The notes beneath the pieces are model-generated. The model did not search any database. It was not told the DNA's origin and saw only the letters and a program-made list of their open reading frames with translations. Positions 9,825 to 22,675 of a stretch of 64,000 nt of DNA are shown piece after piece. The position numbers were made by a program, and so were the translations under genes. Every line of letters begins with the position of its first letter. The first letter of the stretch is position 1. Source of the stretch: an uncultured Verrucomicrobiota bacterium (GTDB lineage: Bacteria > Verrucomicrobiota > Kiritimatiellia > CAIVKH01); the NCBI GenBank assembly GCA_937872895.1, contig CALMUP010000008.1, positions 351,613 through 415,612 on the forward strand. Reading direction: 5' to 3'.

Positions 9825-9853
9825 TTGACGTCGCATCTCACGGTCAGTATGAA
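9825..9853 (+). promoter_or_regulatory. Predicted promoter of the MFS-PlsC-Aas gene
   Basis: TTGACG at 9825-9830, 17-base spacer, TATGAA at 9848-9853. Because start codons at 9825 and 9849 would lie inside this element, it supports translation from ATG 9879, which has GAGGAA at 9864-9869. Confidence 0.55.
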
Positions 9854-9878
9854 GATCGCTTGCGAGGAACCTTTCACG

Positions 9879-12800
9879 ATGAATGAACCCGTACAATCGG
9901 ATCGCGTGGATAAATCGTTTCACTGGCTGAATGCCACCCAGTTTCTCGGCGCGCTGAATGATAATATCTTCAAGTTGCTGGTTACGTTCTTCCTTATCCG
10001 GTCGATTGGACCGGAGCATGCTTCCACACTCAGCGGATTGGGAGGAATCATCTTTGCCCTTCCGTTTATCCTCTTCGTTCCGGCGGCAGGGGTTCTCGCT
10101 GATCGCTTCAGCAAGTCGCGGCTAACCGTGTGGGCGAAGGGAGCTGAAGTTGCCGTGATGGTATCCGGCACCCTCGCATTTTGGTTAGCTCCGCCATGGG
10201 TTGGTTTTGTGATCCTTTTCCTGATGTCCACCCAGAGCGCCTTCTTCAATCCAACCAAATACGGGATCATTCCCGAGTTGGTTCAGCCGCATCACCTTTC
10301 CCGCGCCAACGGATATCTGGTGGCCTTGACCTACCTGTCGATCATCCTGGGAACGGTGGCCGCACCATGGATCACCACGCAGGTGGTTGGAGCCGGGTTG
10401 GAGCAGCGGGATGGCAGCCGATTCGCCTTGGCGGCCTTGGCCTGTGTGATCATCGCCCTGGCTGGTATCAGCACCAGCCTGGGAATCCGTCGCCTGCCAC
10501 CGGTTGGTTCACGCCGCTCACTTGGCTTGAAATTCTGGTCGGACATCCATACCACGTATAAGGCGAACCGCCATGACCGGTTCCTGCTCCTCGCCATTCT
10601 TGCCTCGGCATATTTCTCGCTACTCGGCGCCTTTATTCAGATGAACCTGATTCCGTACGCGATGGAGCATCTGGACTTGAGCGAAACGGAGGGCGGCCTC
10701 ATGTTCCTTTATGCCGCATTCGGTATCGGTTTCGGATCCCTGATGGCCGGGCGTCTGTCCGGGCGCAACATTGAATTCGGCATGATTCCCGCCGGAGCCT
10801 TGCTCATTGCATTCGCTACGTTGCTGCTTTACCTGTTGCCCGCCGGAGTGAACACCACCAAGGTGTTGATCGGCGCGGCCGGACTCGGCGCGGGTCTGTT
10901 CATCATTCCGGTGGAGGCCTTCATCCAGTATCGGGCGCCGCGTGACCAGATCGGGAGCGTGGTAGCCGCCAACGGGTTCCTAAGCTGGGTCGGTGTGTTG
11001 CTGGCCGGGATGCTCGTATTCGGGTTAAGTTTCATTCCCTGGTGGAAACCGTCCTACACCTTCGGCCTGCTCGGTGTCATCACCCTGGTCATGACCGGAG
11101 CATGCCTGCTGGTGCTGCCCGATTTTTTCGTTCGTTTCATCGCCATGCTGCTGGTGCGTTCGGTTTACCGTATCGAACGGATCGGAATCGACAACCTGCC
11201 GCGGGAGGGTGGGGGGCTCCTCGTCGCCAACCACGTATCCCGTTCTGATGCGCTGATCATCCTGGCCAGCCAGCAGCGCCGTATCCGCTTTCTGATGGAG
11301 CGCAGCATTTACCAAGCCCATCCGTTGCGACGGTTGTTTGACCTGATGCGGGTCATCCCGATATCCACGGATGACGGACCCAAGGCGTTGCTCCGCTCGC
11401 TGCACGATGCGCGCAAGGCCATGGACGACGGCTATCTGGTTTGCATCTTCGCCGAAGGTGCCTTGACCCGCAACGGCCAGATGCAGGCATTCCAACCGGG
11501 ATTCGTGCGGATGATGAAGGGTGCCCCGTACCCGATCATCCCGTTACACCTTGGTGGTGTTTGGGGCAGTCGGTTCAGCCATTTCCGCACCATCATCCGC
11601 GGCAGCAAGCCACCCATACGCTGGCGATATCCGGTCACCATGACGGTGGGAGCGGCACTTCCGCCCGACGCCCGGACCTGGCAGGTTTACCGTGCCATCC
11701 AGCAATTGGGCGCACAACATTATGACAACCGCCTTGGCCCTGGCCGCTCGGTCGCCGCCCGGTTTATCGCCAGCGCCCGACGCAACCGCCAGTTACCAGC
11801 CGTAGCCGATACCACCGGCAAATCCCTTACCCACGGGCGACTCCTTATCGCCAGTCTGGCTGCAGCCCGTCTCTTCGGCCGCTCTCTGGCCGGGCAACCG
11901 CGGGTCGGGGTCATCCTGCCCCCCTCCGTTGGCGGTGTTCTGGTCAATCTCAGCCTGATCATGGCCGGCAAGGTTCCGGTCAACTTGAACTTCACGGCAT
12001 CACCTGACGCGTTGCGCTCGGCCATGAAACAGGCCGGTATTGATACGGTAATCACCGCGCGCAAAGTGAAGGACAAGTTGAGCGAAGTGCCATGGCCTTC
12101 GTCGTTGCTTTTTGCCGACGAATTACCATCCATGATCACCGTAAAGGATCGCTTGATCGCCGTGATGTCCGCCTACCTGGCGCCATCGACATGGCTGGCA
12201 CCGAGACTGCCCGAGGGCGGGGATGATCCTCTCACCATTATGTTTTCCTCGGGAACCACCGGCGAGCCCAAGGGCGTCGTGCTCAGCCACCACAACATCC
12301 TGTCCAATATCGAGGCGCTCACGGAAGTATTTCGACCGGACCCGGACCTCCACCTGTGCGCCACCCTGCCGCTGTTCCACTCGTTCGGCTTCACCGCCGG
12401 GATCTGCTTTCCCATGCTCTGCGGCCTGCGTGCCAGTTACCACACGTCGCCCCTGGACGCGGGCCAGGTGGTTGACTTGATTCATCAAGGGCAGTGCAAT
12501 GTGCTGTTCTCGACACCCAGCTTCCTTGGATCCTACATGCGCAAGGCGGATCCGCATCACTTCCAGTCATTGCGGTTCATCCTCGTCGGGGCGGAGAAAC
12601 TTTCCCGTCAGCTTTCCGATGCTTTCCACCAGAAGTTCGGCATACGTCCGCTGGAGGGGTACGGTACGACGGAAATGGCTCCCGTGGTGGCGCTCAATCT
12701 GCCGGAGATTCCCGGAACGCGGCAACTCGGACACAAGGAAGGAAGCATTGGCCGTCCCTTGCCCGGCATCGCAGCCACGGTGGTACATCCGGAGTCCGGC

Positions 12801-13307
12801 GAGGAGCTTCCACCGGAGCAAGCCGGCATGTTGCTGGTCAAGGGTCCGAACAGGATGACCGGCTACCTGAACCGGAAGGATCTCACGGAGAAAGCCTTTC
12901 GTGGCGACTGGTACATTACCGGTGATATCGCGAAAATCGACGAGGACGGCTTCATCTTTATTACCGACCGGTTATTCCGCTTTTCAAAGATCGGAGGCGA
13001 AATGGTACCGCACATCGCCATCGAAGAGGTGGTTGCCGAAGCCCTCCATCTCGCCGAGCTGGCCGTTGCCGTCACCTCTGTACCGGATGAGCGGAAGGGC
13101 GAACGCCTGGCCCTGCTGTACACCCCGGCCATTCCGAACCCTGCCGTTATCAAGCAGGCATTGGACCAATCCAATCTTCCCAACCTGTGGAAACCATCCG
13201 AGTCCATGTTCCTGAAGGTGGATGAACTACCGCTGACCGCCACCGGCAAGGTGGATGTCGCGAAGTTGCGGCAGGTGGCTCGCAGCATGATCGGCCCACC
13301 GACATAA
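9879..13307 (+). CDS. Fused MFS transporter / PlsC acyltransferase / acyl-ACP synthetase (LplT-Aas type)
   Basis: Predicted 1142-residue membrane protein that recycles lysophospholipids. Residues ~1-410 are an MFS module with about 12 helices ('FLGALNDNIFKLLVTFFLI', as in LplT). Residues ~430-620 are a PlsC acyltransferase with the HX4D box 'NHVSRSD' (His452) and 'FAEGALTRNG'. Residues ~680-1140 are an adenylate-forming domain with 'FSSGTTGEPKGVVLSHHN' near 790, 'GYGTTEMAPVV', 'YITGDIAKIDEDGFIFITDR' and 'LPLTATGKVD'. E. coli encodes LplT separately from the Aas fusion; here all three are one chain. The presumed role is to flip lyso-PE inward, activate a fatty acid and re-acylate. Domain calls are firm; the substrate is inferred. 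Confidence 0.93.
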   Translation: MNEPVQSDRVDKSFHWLNATQFLGALNDNIFKLLVTFFLIRSIGPEHASTLSGLGGIIFALPFILFVPAAGVLADRFSKSRLTVWAKGAEVAVMVSGTLAFWLAPPWVGFVILFLMSTQSAFFNPTKYGIIPELVQPHHLSRANGYLVALTYLSIILGTVAAPWITTQVVGAGLEQRDGSRFALAALACVIIALAGISTSLGIRRLPPVGSRRSLGLKFWSDIHTTYKANRHDRFLLLAILASAYFSLLGAFIQMNLIPYAMEHLDLSETEGGLMFLYAAFGIGFGSLMAGRLSGRNIEFGMIPAGALLIAFATLLLYLLPAGVNTTKVLIGAAGLGAGLFIIPVEAFIQYRAPRDQIGSVVAANGFLSWVGVLLAGMLVFGLSFIPWWKPSYTFGLLGVITLVMTGACLLVLPDFFVRFIAMLLVRSVYRIERIGIDNLPREGGGLLVANHVSRSDALIILASQQRRIRFLMERSIYQAHPLRRLFDLMRVIPISTDDGPKALLRSLHDARKAMDDGYLVCIFAEGALTRNGQMQAFQPGFVRMMKGAPYPIIPLHLGGVWGSRFSHFRTIIRGSKPPIRWRYPVTMTVGAALPPDARTWQVYRAIQQLGAQHYDNRLGPGRSVAARFIASARRNRQLPAVADTTGKSLTHGRLLIASLAAARLFGRSLAGQPRVGVILPPSVGGVLVNLSLIMAGKVPVNLNFTASPDALRSAMKQAGIDTVITARKVKDKLSEVPWPSSLLFADELPSMITVKDRLIAVMSAYLAPSTWLAPRLPEGGDDPLTIMFSSGTTGEPKGVVLSHHNILSNIEALTEVFRPDPDLHLCATLPLFHSFGFTAGICFPMLCGLRASYHTSPLDAGQVVDLIHQGQCNVLFSTPSFLGSYMRKADPHHFQSLRFILVGAEKLSRQLSDAFHQKFGIRPLEGYGTTEMAPVVALNLPEIPGTRQLGHKEGSIGRPLPGIAATVVHPESGEELPPEQAGMLLVKGPNRMTGYLNRKDLTEKAFRGDWYITGDIAKIDEDGFIFITDRLFRFSKIGGEMVPHIAIEEVVAEALHLAELAVAVTSVPDERKGERLALLYTPAIPNPAVIKQALDQSNLPNLWKPSESMFLKVDELPLTATGKVDVAKLRQVARSMIGPPT

Positions 13308-14228: not shown

Positions 14229-14891
14229 CTATTGAAGGCGATAGAATCCATTAGCCTGATCAATCAGTTCGCCCAGCGTTGCGGGAGCACCAGGTTGCTT
14301 CATGCCAGCCATGAAGATTTCGACCACGTATGCGGCATCGCTCATGCCACGATGGAATCCATCTCCGGAAATGCCGAGATACTCGGAGAGGGCGGTCAAA
14401 TTGTGGGCGGGAGCATCGGGAAACCAGGCGCGGAACAGGGGCAGGGTATCAACGACGATTAGATCCGGCAGCGACTGGCCGTTTCGTTTGATTTCGGCGG
14501 CGAAGAAGTTCACGTCGAAGCGGGCATTATGGGCCAGCAGCACGGCATCGCCAACAAAGGATATGATTTCCGGATACACCGTACGGAATATCCGCTCGCG
14601 TTTCACCATGTCATGGGTAATGCCATGGACTTTTCTAGCTCCGGCCTGGATGCGGCGGCGTGGATTGATCAGCCAGTTCCTGGAGTCCTGCACTCCCTTC
14701 AGATCGAACCGGATGGCACCATACTCCAGAATTCGCTCGGTCGCCGGGTTCAGTCCGGTTGTCTCGGTATCAAAGGATACAAAGGTGACGTCGGCCATGG
14801 CGAGATCGCGTGGTATGTCGCGGGTGGCCACCACATCCTGCTGCGCCAACACCCCGGCAAAGATTACAAACAACCATTTTGTTAGCTTCAT
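14229..14891 (-). CDS. DnaQ-like DEDDh 3'-5' exonuclease with hydrophobic N-terminus
   Basis: RNase T/DnaQ-superfamily exonuclease, 220 residues from ATG 14891. All three Exo motifs are intact: 'SFDTETTGLNP' (Exo I), 'LLAHNARFDVNFF' (Exo II) and 'GFHRGMSDAAYV' (Exo III, DEDDh type). The first ~22 residues (MKLTKWLFVIFAGVLAQQDVVA) look like a signal peptide or membrane anchor, which is unusual for this family. Initiation at ATG 14798 (MADVTF) would give a normal 189-residue cytosolic protein. Neither start has a Shine-Dalgarno sequence. The promoter at 14901-14927 would start transcription only a few bases before 14891. The start, and hence the location, is unresolved; the exonuclease call is firm. 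Confidence 0.9.
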   Translation of the reverse strand: MKLTKWLFVIFAGVLAQQDVVATRDIPRDLAMADVTFVSFDTETTGLNPATERILEYGAIRFDLKGVQDSRNWLINPRRRIQAGARKVHGITHDMVKRERIFRTVYPEIISFVGDAVLLAHNARFDVNFFAAEIKRNGQSLPDLIVVDTLPLFRAWFPDAPAHNLTALSEYLGISGDGFHRGMSDAAYVVEIFMAGMKQPGAPATLGELIDQANGFYRLQ

Positions 14892-14900
14892 GCTAGCAAA

Positions 14901-14927
14901 AGATTAGCGTTTTGGCTGGTTTGTCAA
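14901..14927 (-). promoter_or_regulatory. Predicted promoter of the DnaQ-like gene
   Basis: On the minus strand a perfect TTGACA (14927-14922) is followed, after a short 15-base spacer, by TAATCT (14906-14901). Transcription would begin near 14894, leaving about 3 bases before ATG 14891, or a 96-base leader before ATG 14798. Confidence 0.5.
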
Positions 14928-14971
14928 ACCGAAACGACATACGCACCCAAGCGTAGCATGTTCCCGCCGTG

Positions 14972-15181
14972 TTACTTGGATACAGAACAACTTCCGGGAA
15001 CACCGAGCTTTTGCAGGATGATTTCCGCCGGGCAGAAGCCGGTCAGGGCTGATTGGATCAGGTTGACCCCGACGAAGACCTCGAGCCAGAGCCAGGCCCG
15101 GGTGCCGGTGTAATGTGCAAGACCGATGCTGGCGAGGACAAGGGTTCCAGCGAGGATACGAATAGCTTTTTCCGTGTTCAT
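14972..15181 (-). CDS. DUF2892 (YgaP transmembrane-domain-like) small membrane protein
   Basis: Membrane protein of 69 residues with two hydrophobic segments; 'IRILAGTLVLASIGLAHYTG' and 'WLWLEVFVGVNLIQSALTGFCPAEIILQKLG' are typical of DUF2892, the membrane domain of the rhodanese YgaP. AAGGA lies about 9 bases before ATG 15181. It is the last gene of the ArsR-controlled efflux operon, 12 bases after the DUF6132 gene. The conserved 'GFCPAE' cysteine and the C-terminal 'GSCSVSK' cysteine suggest a thiol or sulfur-related role, but this is only inference. Confidence 0.85.
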   Translation of the reverse strand: MNTEKAIRILAGTLVLASIGLAHYTGTRAWLWLEVFVGVNLIQSALTGFCPAEIILQKLGVPGSCSVSK

Positions 15182-15193
15182 GGTGGGTTTTCC

Positions 15194-15358
15194 TTAGGGG
15201 TTTCGGGTGATGAACAAACCAAGCAGGGCATACAAGGCAACCGCGATATAGGGATTTCCGGTCAATGGACATGCGCCGGTGCGACATCCGATAAAGCGAT
15301 AAACAAGGTATCCAATAACCGCTCCCGCCAGTCCGCCGATCACCATTCGCATATTCAT
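15194..15358 (-). CDS. DUF6132-like small membrane protein
   Basis: Membrane protein of 54 residues encoded between the pump and DUF2892. It has one N-terminal glycine-rich helix ('VIGGLAGAVIGYLVYRFIG'), a 'CRTGACPLTGNPY' loop with two cysteines, and a second helix ('IAVALYALLGLFIT'). The C-x-x-G-x-C-P-x-T-x-N-P pattern matches what I recall of the uncharacterised DUF6132 family. ATG 15358 overlaps the stop of the RND gene (ATGA). Function unknown; the cysteine loop echoes the cysteine in its neighbour DUF2892. Confidence 0.8.
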   Translation of the reverse strand: MNMRMVIGGLAGAVIGYLVYRFIGCRTGACPLTGNPYIAVALYALLGLFITRNP

Positions 15359-18300
15359 CCTGCACGCTCCTTCTCTCCGTACAACATGACATAGGCAACC
15401 GGAACCACCACCAGTGTGAACGCGGTTGATACAAACAGACCGAACATGATGGACCAGGCGAGGCCGCTGAAGATCGGATCAAGGGTGATTGGCCAGGCAC
15501 CCAGCATGGTGGTGCCGGCTGTGAGGACGATCGGCCGCAAGCGGACGGCACCGGCATTGATTACGGCTTCACGCAGTGGCCTCCCGGCTTGGAGATTGGT
15601 GCGGATGAAGTCGATCAGGATGATACCGTTACGGACCACGATACCGGCGAGGGCGATCATCCCGATCATCGCCGTGGCGGTGAAGAATACGGGATTCTCA
15701 AAACCACCGACTGGACGATTGACCACCAGGTTCAGCAGCCAGAAACCGGGCATGATGCCGATCATGGTCAACGGGATCGACAGCATGATGATGCCCGGCA
15801 ATGCGTACGAACGCGTCTCGTAAACGAGCAGCACATAGATGGCCAGCAGGGCAGCGGCAAAGGCAAGGCCGAGGTCCCTGAACACATCGATGGTGATTTT
15901 CCATTCACCTTCCCCCGACCAGTCGAGTGTAATGCCGGAGGGCAAGGGATGTTCCTCGAAGTGTCGATCCAGTGAAAACACCGCATAGGCGGGCCCACGA
16001 CCAGCCATCTCTGCCGTCACGTAAACGACCCGCTTCAGGTTCTTGTGAAAGATCGTGGCATCCACGATGCCTGGCTCGAAGACGCCCAGCTCGCCCAGCT
16101 GGACCAGGTTGCCTGAGCGATTTTTCACGCCCAGGGTCTTCAGGTACTCGATATCCGAACGGAGTTCCCGCGGGAGCTGCACGAGGATCGGCAATTCGTT
16201 TTGCTCGCGCTCCTGGTGCACCGCACCGGCCATGGCGCCGCCGAGCGCCAAGCCGAGGGTATGCGTCACATCATGGACCGAAACGCCGTTCAAGGCGGCC
16301 TTGTCCCGATCGACGCGGAAAAACAGCTTCGGCTGCGCGGACTCGGTGATGACGTCCGCCTCGACCACCGCATCCTCCAACTCCATGCGCGCCGCGACGG
16401 CATGGGCGGCCTGAACAAGTTCGTCGTAGCGATGGTGCGGCTCACCGTAGACTTCGGCGACCACCGAGGCCAGCACCGGGGGCCCTGGCGGTGTTTCAAC
16501 CAGACGGATCAGCGCACCATGTCGTGCCGCGATCGCCTCGATGTCGTTGCGAATCCGTAGCACCATCGAATGACTGTCCATCGCACGACGCTCCCTGGGC
16601 AGCAGGTTAACGCGTATTTCACCGAGGTGCGGACCCTGTCGCAGGTAGTAGTGGCGCACCATGCCATTGAAATCCATCGGCGAGGCCAGGCCGGCATAGG
16701 AGGTGAAGTCGGTGACTTCCGGCTGGGTGCGCAGGAAATCCTCCAGATCCCGGAGCACCGCATCGGTGGCGGCCAACGCCGAGGCTTCCGGCAAGTCCAC
16801 CACCAACTGGAATTCATTCTTGTTGTCGAACGGCAACATTTTCAGCGGGACGCCGAGCAGGGCGAGCAGCACCGAGCCGGCAAACAGAATGCCAACGACC
16901 AGCATCAGCAAGATCGATACACGCCGCGAATCCAGGAACGGACGCATTATACGTCCATACCAGGCATGCACCCGGCCAGGCCGCTCATCATCGGCATGCT
17001 CAGCGGCCGCGAGGTCCTCGTGGGGAAGCCTGGCCAGCATTCGCGACGAGATCCACGGCGTGATCGTGAAGGAAACGAGCAGGGAACTGATCATGGCCAG
17101 AGGAACATTCAAGGCCATCGGGCGCATGTAGGGACCCATCATGCCGGTGATGAAGAACATCGGCAGGAATGCCACGATAACGGAAAGGGTGGCCAGGACG
17201 ATGGGGGGCATCACCTCGTTCATGGCATCGGATATGGCATCGAGCGTGCGCTTCCTGGATCCCGTCAGGTGACGGTAGATGTTCTCGACCGCGACAATCG
17301 GATCATCGACCAACAGGCCGAGGGCGAGGATCAGCGCAAACAGCGTCACCCGGTTGATGGTGTAGCCGGCCAGCATATTGACAAACAGGGTAAGGGCGTA
17401 GGTGATCGGCACCGCCAAGGCCACGATCAAACCGACCCGCCAGTTCATGACCAGCGTGATCAATACGATCACCGTGATGATCGCCTCGAACAATCCCTTC
17501 ATCAGGTCATTGACCTTGGCGTCGGCCGTCTGTCCGTAATCGCGGGTGATCAGGACCTCGACCTCGTCAGGCAGCACATTGCCACGCAGGGCTTCGAGTC
17601 GCTGGCGGACGTCGCCGGTAACCCGGACGGCATTGCTGCCCTTCTTCTTGGCCACGGCAATGGTGATGGCCGGACGCGATTCCATGTCCCGTCCCGAACC
17701 GGGACCAAACCCGAGCCGGGTGATGGTGGCGAGTTCAGCCGGCCCGTCCATCACCTCGGCCACATCGCGCACATAGACCGGCCGGTCGGCATAGACGCCG
17801 ACCATGACCTCGCCGACCTCCCGTGCATCCGCCAGAAAGGGACCCGCCTCCACCCTGACAACCCGGTTGTCGCGCTCAAGCTGACCGGCGGGAAGCTGAA
17901 CATTCGCGGCGTTCAAACCGGCCATGACATCCATCGGGGATAGACCATGCGCGGCGAGACGATCGCGATCCAGTCGAACGTGAACGATCCGGCGTTCACC
18001 GCCGTGGATGGTGACGGCGGCGGCATTCGGGATATCCTGAAGGTAGGTGACGATTTCCTCGGCTACCCGGTAAAGCGCATGGGTATCAAGATGCTCGCTG
18101 TGCAGGGCCGCTGTGATCACGGGAACATCGTCGATTTCCACCGGCTTGACCACCCAGCCGGTAATGCCCGGCGTGGTCTTGTCGATATTCTGGAAGATCT
18201 TGTTGTAGAGCTTGATCAGGCTTTCCTCCCGGCTCTGGCCGACGAAGAAGCGTACTGTCACCACCGCCTGGCCGGGACGGGACATCGAATAGACATATTC

Positions 18301-18555
18301 CACGCCATCGATTTCGAACAACATCCGTTCGAGGCGCGATGAAACCAGCCGCTCCATTTCCCCGGCGGAAAGTCCGGGCGCGGAGATCAGGACATCGGCG
18401 ACCGGAACCACGATCTGTGGCTCCTCTTCGCGCGGCGTGAGCAACAATGCGGCCGCTCCGGCGGCGAGGCTCACGATGATAAGCAGGATGGTGAGATTGC
18501 CGCGCAGGAATGCATCAATCAGTCCGCTCATCCAGGAGGTCTTTGCCGTGTTCAT
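15355..18555 (-). CDS. RND efflux pump, inner-membrane permease (HAE1-like)
   Basis: Proton-driven RND transporter of 1066 residues, the inner-membrane part of a tripartite exporter. Typical RND layout: helix 1 ('GNLTILLIIVSLAAGAAALLL'), two large periplasmic loops, and helix 4 with the proton-relay pair in 'LALGLLVDDPIVAVENIYRHL' (Asp-Asp as in AcrB Asp407/408). 'LALAVPITYALTLFVNML' and the C-terminal 'GAVRLRPIVLTAGTTMLGAWPI' are also characteristic. Sequence features resemble hydrophobe/amphiphile pumps rather than CzcA metal pumps. The stop overlaps the DUF6132 gene, and the adaptor gene ends 4 bases upstream. Substrate unknown. Confidence 0.94.
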   Translation of the reverse strand: MNTAKTSWMSGLIDAFLRGNLTILLIIVSLAAGAAALLLTPREEEPQIVVPVADVLISAPGLSAGEMERLVSSRLERMLFEIDGVEYVYSMSRPGQAVVTVRFFVGQSREESLIKLYNKIFQNIDKTTPGITGWVVKPVEIDDVPVITAALHSEHLDTHALYRVAEEIVTYLQDIPNAAAVTIHGGERRIVHVRLDRDRLAAHGLSPMDVMAGLNAANVQLPAGQLERDNRVVRVEAGPFLADAREVGEVMVGVYADRPVYVRDVAEVMDGPAELATITRLGFGPGSGRDMESRPAITIAVAKKKGSNAVRVTGDVRQRLEALRGNVLPDEVEVLITRDYGQTADAKVNDLMKGLFEAIITVIVLITLVMNWRVGLIVALAVPITYALTLFVNMLAGYTINRVTLFALILALGLLVDDPIVAVENIYRHLTGSRKRTLDAISDAMNEVMPPIVLATLSVIVAFLPMFFITGMMGPYMRPMALNVPLAMISSLLVSFTITPWISSRMLARLPHEDLAAAEHADDERPGRVHAWYGRIMRPFLDSRRVSILLMLVVGILFAGSVLLALLGVPLKMLPFDNKNEFQLVVDLPEASALAATDAVLRDLEDFLRTQPEVTDFTSYAGLASPMDFNGMVRHYYLRQGPHLGEIRVNLLPRERRAMDSHSMVLRIRNDIEAIAARHGALIRLVETPPGPPVLASVVAEVYGEPHHRYDELVQAAHAVAARMELEDAVVEADVITESAQPKLFFRVDRDKAALNGVSVHDVTHTLGLALGGAMAGAVHQEREQNELPILVQLPRELRSDIEYLKTLGVKNRSGNLVQLGELGVFEPGIVDATIFHKNLKRVVYVTAEMAGRGPAYAVFSLDRHFEEHPLPSGITLDWSGEGEWKITIDVFRDLGLAFAAALLAIYVLLVYETRSYALPGIIMLSIPLTMIGIMPGFWLLNLVVNRPVGGFENPVFFTATAMIGMIALAGIVVRNGIILIDFIRTNLQAGRPLREAVINAGAVRLRPIVLTAGTTMLGAWPITLDPIFSGLAWSIMFGLFVSTAFTLVVVPVAYVMLYGEKERAG

Positions 18556-18559
18556 GGTT

Positions 18560-19603
18560 CTACTCCCGGCCGGCTTCCGGCATGACGATCAAATCACCGG
18601 GTTGCAGTCCGGCCAATACCTCGACGTCCTCACCAACACGGCGTCCGAGTTGAACCATGCGGTTGACCATCCGGCCATCCCTGGCCAGTTGGACCTGATC
18701 AAGCTGACCGATCCGGATCACCGCATGCTGGGGAATGAACAAAGCGGGTGGGGCATCCAGCGTGAGCCGGATCCGTCCAAACGCGCCAGGCAACACCTCG
18801 CCGCCGGTTTGATCCAGACGCAATTTCACACGCCGGGTACGCGATTGGACATCGATCTCGCCGACGATCTCGGTTACCTCCGCCGGCAGGGAGACCGCCG
18901 GGTGATCCAGTACGGCGGTGTATGATTGACCGATGGCGAAACGATCAATCAGGCGGACCGGAACCGGGACTTCCAGGCGCATGTTGACCGGATCGAACAG
19001 GGTCAACAGCAGCTGACCAGGATTGGCCAGGTCACCGGCCTCGACATTCCGCTCCGTGACAACTCCGTCGATCGGGGCACGTACCCGAGCATAGCTGAAC
19101 GTGGCCTTGATCCGGTCAACCTGGGCTCGTGCTGATTGGTAGGCGGCCTCGGCCGCAGTCAAGGCCTGTTCGGTTGCCGCGTTGCGCTGGAACAACTGCT
19201 GGGTGCGGCGGAATTCGGCGAGGGCCTGGTTACCCTGGGCTTCCGCCGCGGCCAGTTGTTCACGAAGCTCACGCTCGTCCAAGCGCACCAGCAGCTGCCC
19301 GTTGGTAACCCGGTCTCCTGCACTTGCCAGTACCGCCTCGACGTACGCGCTCATCCGCGAACTGATCTGGATGCGCCGGTCCGACGTAACCGAGCCCACA
19401 AGATCGACGGTCAACGGGTGGGCGATCTCACCGACTTTCAGAAGTCGCGTATCGGACGCAAGAGGCTTTCCGGCGGCACCATCCACTGTTCCCGGGGCAA
19501 CCTTGTCGTGCAGATAGCCACCGGCATAGACCATCATGACGATCAGGCCAATAAATGCGATGATCGGCTTGATCCAACGGGTTGTACGATTGCGTGTGTT
19601 CAT
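18560..19603 (-). CDS. RND periplasmic adaptor (membrane fusion protein)
   Basis: HlyD/AcrA-family adaptor of 347 residues linking the pump to the TolC-like channel. An N-terminal helix ('IKPIIAFIGLIVMMVYAGGYL') anchors it. Then come a lipoyl half-motif ('MSAYVEAVLASAGDRVTNGQLLVRLDERE'), a coiled-coil hairpin (~115-165) and the second lipoyl half ('ARVRAPIDGVVTERNVEAGDLANPGQLLLTL'). A beta-barrel and membrane-proximal domain follow. There is no lipobox cysteine, so it is membrane anchored. It lies between tolC and the pump with 2- and 4-base gaps. Confidence 0.94.
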   Translation of the reverse strand: MNTRNRTTRWIKPIIAFIGLIVMMVYAGGYLHDKVAPGTVDGAAGKPLASDTRLLKVGEIAHPLTVDLVGSVTSDRRIQISSRMSAYVEAVLASAGDRVTNGQLLVRLDERELREQLAAAEAQGNQALAEFRRTQQLFQRNAATEQALTAAEAAYQSARAQVDRIKATFSYARVRAPIDGVVTERNVEAGDLANPGQLLLTLFDPVNMRLEVPVPVRLIDRFAIGQSYTAVLDHPAVSLPAEVTEIVGEIDVQSRTRRVKLRLDQTGGEVLPGAFGRIRLTLDAPPALFIPQHAVIRIGQLDQVQLARDGRMVNRMVQLGRRVGEDVEVLAGLQPGDLIVMPEAGRE

Positions 19604-19605
19604 GG

Positions 19606-20925
19606 TTAGGGCTCCACCAGAGGATTGACCAGCAGGCCGCGGGCCCGCCGGAGATTCGATTCAGCGATCAGGAAATCATACATCGCGCCAGCTTCCCGGC
19701 TGCGGTTGGATGTCAGGCCGAGTTGAGCGGTCAGCAGTTGCGTGATATCCGCAGCCCCTTGCTCGTACCGTTCACGGGTAATCCGCAAGGCTTCGTCGGC
19801 GCTGGCCTGGCTCTGGCGAGCCACCTGCAGGCGGGACCACGCCTCCTGCACGGACAACCAGCTCTGGGTATGATCGTACTCCACCTGCTGCCGCAAGGCG
19901 GTTTTCCGGGCCGTCGCCTCCCGGGAACGCGCTCTCGCCATGGCCTGTTCAGCCGAGCGTCGTTTGCCGGTAAAGATTTCAACATCCACCATGGCGCCGA
20001 CAAGGTAGCTCTCCTCGAAGTCACCAAGACGATCACTGTCGGCATCGACAGAACCGAACGCCACCAGTTTTGGCCAGCGATCCCGTTGTGCGCCTGTGGC
20101 CTCGCGACTGGCCGCTTCGGCCTCCAGAGAGGCCGCCACCAGGTCCGGCCGCTCATCAAGACCGGCAAACACCGCATCTGCGTCAACCGGCGCATCCAGC
20201 TCCGAGGACACGGGATCCACCTGCTCTGCATCATCAACAAACGTCCGACCGATTGCCGTATTCAATGCCGCGAGGGCCAGTTGCACCCCGTTGCGCGCGC
20301 GGATGACCTGATCCTGCGCTTCGGCCACTTGAACCTCGAGGTTCAGCACATCCGTTTTCACGACCGAGCCGGCTTCGAAGCGCTCCTGGGCCACCCGCAT
20401 ATTCTCCCGCAGGCTGGCGACGGACTCTTCTCCGACCTCGAGCAGTGCCTTGGCCTGCAACACGCCGTAATAGGCGCGGGTAACCAGATGGACCAACTCG
20501 TTGCGCGCAGCGTCACGGGCCGCTTCCGCAGCTTTGGCGCGCAGCTCGGCGGATTGCCCGGACAAGCTGCGGGCTCCCGCGTCGGCTACCAACATCCGGA
20601 ACCCTAGCGTGCCCCGCAGGTTGTCCGTGTCTTCCGGCTGGTTGAAATCATTCTGCAGCGAAGCCTGGCGCTGGTTGAGGTTCATGAAAAAGGCCTGCGG
20701 CGGATTGTCGGTACGCGCATACTGGGCGTTGGCATAAAGGGTGGGGTAGTAGGCCGAACGGGCCATACCGATCGCCGCTTCCGCAGCGGCGACCCGGTGG
20801 GTCATCGCCTCCAGATGGGCATTCCCGGCCAATGCCTCCTCAATGCAAGCCTCGAGGGAACGAGCATGGGAAGGCGCGACCGCCACCATGAACAACCCGA
20901 ATGCGCGCACCAGAAATCCGTTCAT
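19606..20925 (-). CDS. TolC-family outer-membrane efflux channel
   Basis: Outer-membrane factor of 439 residues. It has a signal peptide ('MNGFLVRAFGLFMVAVAPSHA'), then two repeats of long amphipathic helices ('LEACIEEALAGNAHLEAMTHRVAAAEAAIGMARSAYYPTL', 'ARDAARNELVHLVTRAYYGVLQAKALLEV', 'YEQGAADITQLLTAQLGLTSNRSREA') as expected for TolC. AGGAGG lies 7 bases before ATG 20925, which overlaps the arsR stop (ATGA); the longer in-frame start at 20955 is inside arsR. Second gene of the efflux operon. Confidence 0.93.
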   Translation of the reverse strand: MNGFLVRAFGLFMVAVAPSHARSLEACIEEALAGNAHLEAMTHRVAAAEAAIGMARSAYYPTLYANAQYARTDNPPQAFFMNLNQRQASLQNDFNQPEDTDNLRGTLGFRMLVADAGARSLSGQSAELRAKAAEAARDAARNELVHLVTRAYYGVLQAKALLEVGEESVASLRENMRVAQERFEAGSVVKTDVLNLEVQVAEAQDQVIRARNGVQLALAALNTAIGRTFVDDAEQVDPVSSELDAPVDADAVFAGLDERPDLVAASLEAEAASREATGAQRDRWPKLVAFGSVDADSDRLGDFEESYLVGAMVDVEIFTGKRRSAEQAMARARSREATARKTALRQQVEYDHTQSWLSVQEAWSRLQVARQSQASADEALRITRERYEQGAADITQLLTAQLGLTSNRSREAGAMYDFLIAESNLRRARGLLVNPLVEP

Positions 20926-21230
20926 CGCACCGCCTCCTGCTTCTTGCGGATGCAATCAAGAATGGTCAGGGCCCGGTTGTCCGCGATCCGGTACCAGACT
21001 TCTTTCCCTTTGCGAGTCGATGCCAGCAGGCCAACCCGTTTCATGTGGCCCAGATGCTGCGATGTCATCGCCTGGGCAAGATGCAAGCGCTCATGGATCA
21101 ACGACACCGACGCCTCCTTCTCGTCCTCCAGCAACTCGACAATCTTCAGCCGGTGCGGGTGGGCCAGCACCTTCAGCGCCGCCGCCATGCGCTCCAGCAG
21201 GTCGATCGGCAATGGTTGTTTCCTTTTCAT
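20922..21230 (-). CDS. ArsR/SmtB-family repressor of the efflux operon
   Basis: Winged-helix regulator of 102 residues, first gene of the operon it probably controls. 'LAHPHRLKIVELLEDEKEASVSLIHERLHLAQAMTSQHLGHMKRVGLLASTRKGKEVWYRI' is the complete ArsR HTH plus wing. The classical alpha3 metal site (ELCVCD) is replaced by 'EASVSLI', and the only cysteine is near the C-terminus ('LDCIRKK'). A classical alpha3 As/Cd site is therefore absent; another ligand, or a single-thiol switch, is possible. The promoter contains a 24-bp palindrome. ATG 21230 has no convincing Shine-Dalgarno sequence and lies 9 bases past the -10 element. Confidence 0.93.
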   Translation of the reverse strand: MKRKQPLPIDLLERMAAALKVLAHPHRLKIVELLEDEKEASVSLIHERLHLAQAMTSQHLGHMKRVGLLASTRKGKEVWYRIADNRALTILDCIRKKQEAVR

Positions 21231-21238
21231 ACCCGCTC

Positions 21239-21266
21239 AACATATCATGATATCATGATATGTCAA
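21239..21266 (-). promoter_or_regulatory. Promoter with embedded ArsR operator
   Basis: On the minus strand TTGACA (21266-21261) and TATGTT (21244-21239) are 16 bases apart, a near-ideal sigma70 promoter. A perfect 24-bp palindrome (21240-21263, half-site ACATATCATGAT) fills the spacer and touches both hexamers. A dimer bound there would exclude RNA polymerase, which is the expected logic for ArsR autorepression. The predicted transcript start is about 1-3 bases from the arsR ATG. Confidence 0.8.
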
Positions 21267-21306
21267 TGTATATACGGGGGAATAACATCCAGTGCGGAAT
21301 GGTTGT

Positions 21307-22107
21307 TCAAAAACGGTAACCGATCCTCAATCCGGTCACTTCGCGGGTGGAGGCGGGCTGGAAGAACTGGCCGGTGTCATCCAGGTCGGACTGCCCGAAC
21401 TCCATATAGGTGTGGAATACCGCGGCGTGCCAGGCCCCATGGTTGATCCCGACCTCGAGTTGCCAGCCGGGCTTCTCCTCCGGTTCCAACTCAATATCGT
21501 CCCCGCCATCGGCGAGGGGAACACCCACGGCCCATTCGTAGTTGAAGAAGGGCAGTAGCATGGCGGCGGAAGTGAACAGCTCGGTTTCGGTCGCGGTGCG
21601 CCAACCGAGGCGGAATCCGGCCCGCCCATACAGGGTCAGCCAGTATTCATCGTAACCATACCCCTCGTCATCATCGAGGCTGCGCAGCCAATAGTGGGCA
21701 CCGACACCGAGGAACGGTTCGGCGGTGATACCCGACGCCAGGGTATGGCCGTACCCGACATCCCATGAGCCCGCCACGCCCAGATAGGTGGTCTCGGATT
21801 CATAGGGACGTATCGATCCGTCAAGACTGATCAGGAATCCATCGTAATCAACCGTGCCGCCATACACGTCTCCGGCCAGCCGTGAGCGCCATCCGGGCGA
21901 GCGGTGCAGCAGTTCGGTCTCGATACGGAGCCCGAGCAGGCTACCACGCTCTTCGAGTGACAGGCCGTTGGGCAGCTTCTCGGTCCAGGTAAAGTCCTGC
22001 AGATTGGCCGAGATCGTGGCATTGGCGCTGGCCGATGTGACCGTGACGGCCATGAAGGCGATGCCGACGCCGGCGGCAATCAGGGCGGGAAGTCGCGGCA
22101 TGGTCAT
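21307..22107 (-). CDS. Predicted outer-membrane beta-barrel protein
   Basis: Exported protein of 266 residues with a signal peptide ('MPRLPALIAAGVGIAFMAVTVTSASA'). The rest alternates short hydrophobic/aromatic strands with polar turns ('LLGLRIETELLH', 'SRLAGDVYGGTVDYDGF', 'WLTLYGRAGFRLGW', 'WQLEVGINHGAWHAAVFHTYMEFG') and ends in 'TGLRIGYRF', a terminal Phe/aromatic beta-signal recognised by the BAM machinery. AGGAGG is 6 bases before ATG 22107 and overlaps the stop of the upstream DUF2780 gene. I recognise no named family; porin, adhesin-like barrel or OMP assembly substrate are possible. Confidence 0.72.
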   Translation of the reverse strand: MTMPRLPALIAAGVGIAFMAVTVTSASANATISANLQDFTWTEKLPNGLSLEERGSLLGLRIETELLHRSPGWRSRLAGDVYGGTVDYDGFLISLDGSIRPYESETTYLGVAGSWDVGYGHTLASGITAEPFLGVGAHYWLRSLDDDEGYGYDEYWLTLYGRAGFRLGWRTATETELFTSAAMLLPFFNYEWAVGVPLADGGDDIELEPEEKPGWQLEVGINHGAWHAAVFHTYMEFGQSDLDDTGQFFQPASTREVTGLRIGYRF

Positions 22108-22117
22108 CGATTACCTC

Positions 22118-22498
22118 CTAACGGGCAGGAAGCAGCTTTCCGAGCATGGCCGCCAATTCCGGGCCGCCTTTTTGTTTGACGACATCGAGGATAACCGGGA
22201 CGAATTGACTGATGGTCTGGGGGTCCAGCTTAAGCGAAGTCAGGGCACCGGCCAGCGAGGCAAGACCACCCAGCGAGCCGCCACCCAGAGCCCCGGCCAG
22301 TGAACCGAGCAATCCGCCCCCGGAAGCCGGCGGCGCGGACGTGATGAGGGACACCACTTCCGGCAAGGCCTGGGAAAGTTTTGCGAAATCCCCGGCGGCG
22401 AGCTTGTCCTGAGCCAGCTTGAACAGGAGTCCGGCTCCGCCCTTGGCCTGTTGTTCATTGACACCGACGGTATTGACGATTTGCTGAATCAAGTCCAT
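22118..22498 (-). CDS. DUF2780-like protein
   Basis: Small protein of 126 residues. 'MDLIQQIVNTVGVNEQQAKGGAGLLFKLAQDKLAAGDFAKLSQALPEVVSLI' resembles the DUF2780 (VcgC/VcgE) pattern of a helical repeat. It is followed by a Gly/Ala/Leu-rich central stretch ('GGGLLGSLAGALGGGSLGGLASLAGAL') and 'LDPQTISQFVPVILDVVKQKGGPELAAMLGKLL'. There is no signal peptide. AAGGAG stands 6-7 bases before ATG 22498. It is probably co-transcribed with the barrel gene, 10 bases away. Function unknown. Confidence 0.78.
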   Translation of the reverse strand: MDLIQQIVNTVGVNEQQAKGGAGLLFKLAQDKLAAGDFAKLSQALPEVVSLITSAPPASGGGLLGSLAGALGGGSLGGLASLAGALTSLKLDPQTISQFVPVILDVVKQKGGPELAAMLGKLLPAR

Positions 22499-22601
22499 GG
22501 CGATCTCCTTTTCCGCCACCGTAATACCGAAGTGATATACGGGCAATCTCGAACCGTGCTTGACGGCAGGTTTACCGTGGTTACTGTATGGTGCTATCAA
22601 C

Positions 22602-22675
22602 GCGGGCATAGCTTAGTGGTAAAGTTCTAGCCTTCCAAGCTAGCCAGGCGGGTTCGATTCCCGCTGCCCGCTCCA
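22602..22675 (+). tRNA. tRNA-Gly (anticodon TCC)
   Basis: Complete cloverleaf: acceptor GCGGGCA/TGCCCGC, D-arm GCTT/AAGT, anticodon stem CTAGC/GCTAG with loop CTTCCAA (anticodon TCC at 22634-22636), T-arm GCGGG/CCCGC with TTCGATT loop. CCA is encoded at 22673-22675. Only 8 bases separate it from the convergent amylase gene's stop. Confidence 0.97.

Follow-up and report, generated by a model that had tools for sequence, protein, structure and literature searches.

An operon for an ArsR-family repressor, an RND efflux system and two small cysteine-bearing membrane proteins, with a probable role in the response to reactive sulfur

We analyzed a 64-kb stretch of DNA (the window) from contig CALMUP010000008.1 of an uncultured Verrucomicrobiota bacterium of the class Kiritimatiellia, and in particular a cluster of six genes on its minus strand (14972-21266) for an ArsR/SmtB-family repressor, a tripartite resistance-nodulation-division (RND) efflux system, and two small membrane proteins. 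Gene families in the window were assigned with Pfam and NCBIfam models. The features of the cluster, listed in the predicted direction of transcription, are the following.

21239..21266, minus strand: promoter with embedded operator; the sole promoter-like match in 14700-21500, palindromic, recurring at orthologous arsR genes
20922..21230, minus strand: arsR, ArsR/SmtB-family repressor, 102 amino acids (aa), with one Cys (C93) in the predicted C-terminal helix alpha5 (NF033788, 76.2 bits)
19606..20925, minus strand: tolC-like outer-membrane channel, 439 aa (PF02321 [OEP], 198 bits)
18560..19603, minus strand: RND periplasmic adaptor (membrane fusion protein), 347 aa, no Cys (TIGR01730 [RND_mfp], 199 bits)
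15355..18555, minus strand: RND permease, 1066 aa, no Cys, of a distinct subfamily judged by identities, tree, and residue conservation (PF00873 [ACR_tran], 552 bits)
15194..15358, minus strand: DUF6132-like two-helix membrane protein, 54 aa, with the motif GC-R-T-G-A-CP between the helices (PF19628, 18.0 bits, subthreshold; family alignment)
14972..15181, minus strand: DUF2892/YgaP-like transmembrane protein, 69 aa, with a GFCP motif ending helix 2 and no rhodanese domain (PF11127, 49 bits)

The gene order is thus arsR-tolC-adaptor-RND-DUF6132-DUF2892. ATGA overlaps couple arsR (21230-20922) to tolC (ATG at 20925) and the RND gene to DUF6132 (ATG at 15358), and the remaining intergenic gaps measure 2 bases (tolC-adaptor), 4 bases (adaptor-RND), and 12 bases (DUF6132-DUF2892). 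The original prediction, made from the sequence alone, had described this strand, order, and spacing, with ATGA overlaps or gaps of 2 to 12 bases, and was borne out in full. Its extent was right for the genes; the stretch that it delimited ends at 21266, where the -35 box begins, with the promoter and operator running from 21266 to 21239. This promoter consists of TTGACA (21266-21261), a 16-base spacer, and TATGTT (21244-21239). A perfect 24-bp palindrome, ACATATCATGATATCATGATATGT (21240-21263), fills its spacer and exceeds every other perfect palindrome of the window in length. Most orthologous arsR genes in Kiritimatiellia-type loci have TTGACATAT...ATGATATnTTGA-like operators upstream. The 22-bp core of the palindrome has a single copy in the 3.87-Mb assembly, with up to 3 mismatches allowed, so that the repressor probably controls this six-gene operon alone. 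Separate transcription of the two small genes, which the original prediction had named as an argument against a common unit, is not predicted; one sigma-70-type promoter, that at arsR, is predicted to serve them together with the pump. A weak terminator-like hairpin (14955-14940) follows DUF2892, and such matches are no commoner than in shuffled sequences.

We then used the pump as a query in 289 Verrucomicrobiota genomes, disregarding its neighbors, and counted genes within 3.5 kb on the same strand as near. Among the 31 orthologues with at least 59% identity, DUF6132 was near in 20, DUF2892 in 23, both in 16, and either in 27. At 40 to 50% identity (n = 39), DUF2892 was near in 20 and DUF6132 in 3. 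The counts of this survey are low by at least one because the cluster of one genome (G065) is divided over two contigs. The class-level relatives of the genome analyzed here are metagenome-assembled genomes of Kiritimatiellae/Lentisphaerae. In a set of 34 Kiritimatiellia-type loci, selected in part by the presence of the small genes and scored by profile matches on raw open reading frames, 22 had a same-strand ArsR gene and 18 had all six gene types. The genome search anticipated in the original prediction thus found homologues of DUF6132 and DUF2892 repeatedly near RND and ArsR genes. The arrangement of the operon is not a product of chance, as both the gene order and the small genes are conserved across genera and families.

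These data also bear on the idea that the small proteins are hitchhikers, that is, a sulfur homeostasis pair that shares the promoter by accident. Although DUF6132 or DUF2892 lies on another contig than the pump in five genomes (G053, G265, G044, G071, and G121), we consider this very improbable, given that 27 of the 31 close orthologues hold at least one small gene in proximity, that the RND and DUF6132 genes are coupled by ATGA, and that the DUF6132/DUF2892 pair also follows a different type of exporter under the same operator. In the latter locus (L078, 5750-11761), the AcrB-type pump is replaced by an exporter of the MMPL family together with a LolA-like protein, behind the same type of ArsR and the same operator, and DUF6132 and DUF2892 are retained downstream, which amounts to a natural pump swap. 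In two further loci of the same class (L097 and L099), DUF2892 is found near MMPL-type exporters, and DUF2892 may therefore partner more than one type of RND superfamily exporter. Another variation is a P-II-like protein of 96 aa (PF00543, 32.6 bits), a possible pump regulator, that is encoded directly after the pump, ahead of DUF6132, in L065, L073, L074, and L082; it is present in 16 of the 34 loci and missing from the window.

The repressor satisfies the family models for ArsR/SmtB proteins, with 28.2 bits for HTH_5 (cutoff, 22) and 76.2 bits for NF033788 (cutoff, 55). C93 is its sole cysteine, and the corresponding position is a Cys in every readable orthologue of the cluster. There is no Cys at the alpha2 position (SqrR/YgaV type) or at the C terminus. 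The SqrR/BigR/YgaV class of persulfide sensors was ruled out on account of this missing two-cysteine signature and of the score for the BigR model (51.1 bits; cutoff, 155). TsoR (NF045707), for which no paper was found in the literature searched, was rejected on its score (52.9 bits; cutoff, 115). Three cysteine layouts were observed in ArsR proteins encoded beside RND-DUF2892 modules: (i) alpha2 plus C-terminal Cys in Proteobacteria, (ii) an alpha5 CxxxC in another Verrucomicrobiota family (f38), and (iii) a single invariant alpha5 Cys in Kiritimatiellia, often accompanied by an N-terminal Cys or a second alpha5 Cys, extras that the window protein lacks. One exporter/small-protein module is therefore served by three different cysteine arrangements. 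If a single alpha5 Cys per subunit does act as the sensor, it would add a third type of sensor to the SqrR pair and to the alpha5 CxxxC of other Verrucomicrobiota.

The pump belongs to the RND superfamily, as indicated by PF00873 and by the retained proton relay residues D417, D418, R1005, and T1012, but it is distant from characterized members. The subfamily spans identities of 37 to 69% across phyla; the window pump is 36 to 49% identical to plasmid-borne and other cross-phylum pumps and 22 to 27%, where alignable, to AcrB, MdtB/C, CusA, and the paralogues of its own genome. This genome contains 8 RND genes above the cutoff and one DUF2892 gene, which adjoins the operon pump. In a phylogenetic tree, the canonical pumps group together, apart from the window pump and those of Paracoccus, Shinella, Novosphingobium, and Salinivibrio; the root is uncertain because the outgroup branches are very long, and an extreme branch puts one paralogue (own_L187) in the wrong place. 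Sequence features that set the subfamily apart are (i) an Arg in place of the relay residue Lys940 of AcrB (Arg975 in the window pump) in 64 of 65 family members, (ii) an Asp at the position of AcrB Phe136 in all 65, as aligned, and (iii) an extra segment around 630-640. AcrB Phe136, Phe178, Phe610, and Phe628 align to D, H, T, and R in the window pump (a weak alignment at 22% identity), so that the hydrophobic trap seems absent.

Membership in the HAE-1 multidrug (AcrB-like) class was rejected on this basis, most of these Phe residues not being kept as aligned, and on the scores for NF033617 (479; cutoff, 1250) and TIGR00915 (337; cutoff, 940). The same observations, together with the DUF2892 association that is retained across phyla, make it quite unlikely that the operon encodes a general multidrug or xenobiotic pump with expression coupled to redox or sulfur stress, beside small proteins that maintain thiols and have no part in transport, even though the proton relay is intact and the nearest solved structures are multidrug permeases such as MexK. 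The HME heavy-metal (CusA/CzcA) class was likewise ruled out: the score for TIGR00914 was 290.8 (cutoff, 701), and the Met triad of CusA (M573, M623, and M672) aligns to V, L, and A, positions that are not conserved as Met across the pump family, as aligned. Taken together, the Arg, Asp, His, and Thr substitutions and the missing Met triad point to a cargo that is polar and perhaps anionic, within the limits of the weak alignment.

Another explanation is that the operon serves metal or metalloid efflux, with the ArsR protein sensing As(III), Cd, Zn, or a metal-thiolate via its alpha5 Cys and the pump exporting the ion or a sulfide/thiolate complex. It would account for the membership of the regulator in the ArsR/SmtB family and for its alpha5 Cys, to which several relatives add CxC or CC motifs and an N-terminal Cys, and export of metal sulfides was proposed by the authors who described H2S-induced pumps in Azospira (PMC5358917). 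Nevertheless, we regard it as unlikely, in view of the Met triad and the HME score just mentioned, of the absence of Cys from both pump and adaptor, and of the recurrent unannotated neighbors reported below, which include no arsenic or metal genes.

Regarding the small proteins, the original prediction had singled out three conserved-looking cysteine motifs, two of which are indeed conserved. In the DUF6132 protein (C-R-T-G-A-C-P), C25 and C30 are invariant across 18 aligned relatives. The GFCP cysteine of the DUF2892 protein recurs in nearly all relatives, but its C-terminal GSCS cysteine is not conserved. The window DUF6132 protein scores below the cutoff of PF19628 (18.0 versus 23.2 bits); homology makes its assignment to DUF6132 probable, as an aligned, thioredoxin-fused relative that shares the invariant CxxxxCP motif scores 60.6 bits. 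Its predicted structure (mean pLDDT, 74.5) consists of helices 2-23 and 36-51 with the Cys loop between them. The DUF2892 protein matches PF11127 (YgaP-like_TM) with 49 bits (cutoff, 25.3) and is 33% identical over 55 aa to the membrane part of Escherichia coli YgaP. It is not a full YgaP sulfurtransferase, as its 69 aa comprise PF11127 alone, without the N-terminal rhodanese domain.

We also searched for DUF6132 in 84,980 species genomes, which yielded 363 relatives; the best 80 were fetched and could be placed in 75 loci. These best 80 span Verrucomicrobiota, Myxococcota, Elusimicrobiota, Latescibacterota, Neomarinimicrobiota, KSB1, Bacteroidota, Spirochaetes, Omnitrophota, and others. DUF6132 is fused to rhodanese in L142, L143, and L152 and to thioredoxin in L092 and L167; the neighborhood scan of the 75 loci registered fusions in four loci. 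If the fused domains are cytoplasmic, the Cys loop of DUF6132 would face the periplasm, whereas the analogy to YgaP would place the GFCP motif of DUF2892 on the cytoplasmic side, and it is this opposed placing that suggests a cysteine relay across the membrane. No paper on DUF6132 and no described function was found in the literature searched; two named cysteines and natural thioredoxin and rhodanese fusions now provide a specific hypothesis for this family.

Within 3 kb of DUF6132, a sulfur or thiol gene was present in 48 of the 75 loci and an RND gene in 25. Gene densities per 100 kb at up to 3 kb versus more than 6 kb from DUF6132 were 7.6 versus 0.3 for thioredoxin, 4.2 versus 0 for DUF2892, 3.0 versus 0 for FmdB, and 6.1 versus 0.6 for RND genes. 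Recurrent families among the otherwise unannotated neighbors included OsmC, MMPL exporters, another type of DUF2892, and a metallo-beta-lactamase with rhodanese repeats, and no arsenic or metal resistance genes were recognized in this inventory. The genes that relatives carry within the operon or directly behind it encode P-II-like and DUF302 proteins, thioredoxin, peroxiredoxin, an FmdB-type zinc ribbon, CoA-disulfide reductase-rhodanese, and YeeE/YedE; nearly all of the extra genes in these clusters are sulfur or thiol genes. In an Ignavibacteria cluster (L143, 9399-10007), a thiopurine methyltransferase-like gene, possibly for thiol methylation, lies between ArsR and the DUF6132-rhodanese fusion. 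DUF6132 matches in four other loci (L199, L201, L209, and L210) were not confirmed and were not used.

A similar picture emerged from plasmid records, in which RND, adaptor, DUF2892, and ArsR genes occur together in Paracoccus denitrificans, Salinivibrio, Azospirillum, Shinella, and Novosphingobium; in Vibrio HDW18, the trio of RND, adaptor, and DUF2892 stands without ArsR, and the Roseibium plasmid pump has no DUF2892 or ArsR neighbor. The neighbors in P. denitrificans include a match of 570 bits to the Blh persulfide dioxygenase/sulfurtransferase model and a weak match to a sulfide:quinone oxidoreductase (SQR) model, and its ArsR matches BigR. SQR-like genes adjoin RND-adaptor-DUF2892 in Shinella and Novosphingobium, and genes for CoA-disulfide reductase-rhodanese and YeeE/YedE do so in Salinivibrio. 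The ArsR proteins of Paracoccus, Shinella, Novosphingobium, and Salinivibrio have a Cys at the SqrR alpha2 position, and BigR was the best or second-best model for the four tested. Since curated equivalog cutoffs were missed in the plasmid clusters, these assignments are family-level statements.

In the literature, the link between RND pumps and sulfide-responsive repressors is already known in outline. In Azospira suillum PS, an operon for membrane fusion protein, SQR, and RND (Dsui_3440-3443) is highly expressed under H2S oxidation, and a DUF2892 gene (Dsui_0042) is induced about 10-fold under H2S-oxidizing conditions (PMC5358917). RND efflux genes are among the apparent targets of ArsR repressors that respond to sulfane sulfur (PMC12423496), and ygaVP of E. 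coli is sulfide responsive (PMC9774250). The statement in the original prediction that no characterized function is known for such a unit is to be softened in light of the first two reports. As far as the literature searched goes, what is new is the definition of the pump subfamily, DUF6132 as a partner, the conservation of the operator, and an ArsR with a single Cys. A Pseudomonas putida paper that names SqrR and RND concerns MexEF and selenite and has no bearing on this operon.

A comparison with the closest known systems revealed the following. (i) The window operon shares the gene set of the Azospira/Paracoccus-type RND operons, namely, a pump of the same subfamily, DUF2892, and ArsR, the Azospira pumps being compared by published description only. 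Azospira likewise has RND and adaptor in an operon and a DUF2892 gene, but its SQR lies inside the operon, its DUF2892 gene lies elsewhere, and no DUF6132 is reported. (ii) The BigR/SqrR-type cluster on a plasmid of P. denitrificans PD1222 (L216) combines the RND subfamily, adaptor, DUF2892, and an ArsR repressor. However, its pump is 39% identical to that of the window, its ArsR has the alpha2 plus C-terminal Cys pair, and it adjoins persulfide dioxygenase, sulfurtransferase, YeeE, and SQR-like genes and lacks TolC and DUF6132. (iii) E. coli ygaVP also unites an ArsR regulator and a DUF2892 membrane domain in one operon, but YgaP includes a rhodanese domain, no pump is encoded, and the two Cys of YgaV occupy positions at which the window ArsR has no Cys. 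(iv) CusCFBA and CzcCBA have the same tripartite RND architecture, whereas the window pump has no Met triad and a family score far below the cutoff, and its regulator is of another type.

Because genes for the handling of sulfide and persulfide surround relatives of the operon in several phyla, its most likely role is a defense by export or clearing of reactive sulfur. We thus propose that the operon is probably a self-regulated efflux and detoxification unit that responds to reactive sulfur, with inducer and cargo deduced from sequence comparisons. The original prediction had suggested accessory proteins that handle a thiol, sulfane sulfur, or metal-thiolate substrate. Comparative genomics of the gene neighborhoods supports this notion of sulfur-handling partners; among the three substrate classes, the gene company favors sulfane sulfur or thiols, and arsenic or metal genes did not recur in it.

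The position and conservation of the operator suggest that an ArsR dimer would bind the palindrome between the -35 and -10 boxes and block transcription. A reactive sulfur species (persulfide, polysulfide, or sulfide derived) may then modify the invariant alpha5 Cys, perhaps bridging the subunits, and cause release from the DNA. The derepressed operon would yield the TolC-adaptor-RND tripartite pump, with a putative sulfur substrate, and the two small membrane proteins with conserved Cys. At the inner membrane, DUF6132 and DUF2892 probably act as acceptors of sulfane sulfur or as thiol shuttles, a role proposed because of the DUF6132 fusions to thioredoxin and rhodanese and because DUF2892 is the membrane part of the YgaP sulfurtransferase. 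The likeliest cargo, which would enter the pump from the periplasmic side, is a sulfur compound of small size and polar, possibly anionic character, for example, a persulfide or polysulfide of low molecular weight; organic thiols are possible substrates. A more specific version, which we put forward tentatively and consider rather doubtful, is that the RND subfamily is devoted to the export of sulfane sulfur (low-molecular-weight persulfides or polysulfides), that DUF2892 and DUF6132 form a cysteine relay from the cytoplasmic side to the periplasmic entry of the pump, and that the ArsR with its single alpha5 Cys is the sensor.

Several observations weigh against a role in the reactive-sulfur response. 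(i) Deletion of the Azospira RND-SQR operon or of its DUF2892 gene left the rate of H2S oxidation unchanged (PMC5358917). (ii) Many RND relatives at 45 to 50% identity have neither small gene nearby. (iii) Known persulfide sensors have a two-cysteine signature that is missing from the window ArsR. (iv) The window cluster itself contains no thioredoxin, rhodanese, SQR, or persulfide dioxygenase gene, and there was no match in the genome to the SQR model used; elsewhere in this genome, three rhodaneses and one YeeE-like match are found above the cutoff. That the subfamily nonetheless accompanies sulfur genes in several phyla makes RND export of reactive sulfur a concretely testable question.

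Two other features of the window were noted. Upstream of the operon, a gene on the minus strand (22118-22609) encodes a protein of the DUF2780 (VcgC/VcgE) family, for which no link to the operon was found. On the plus strand, one reading frame of 1160 aa (9825-13307) combines MFS transporter, acyltransferase, and AMP-binding enzyme parts, as does a fusion of a lysophospholipid transporter with an Aas-like acyltransferase/synthetase.

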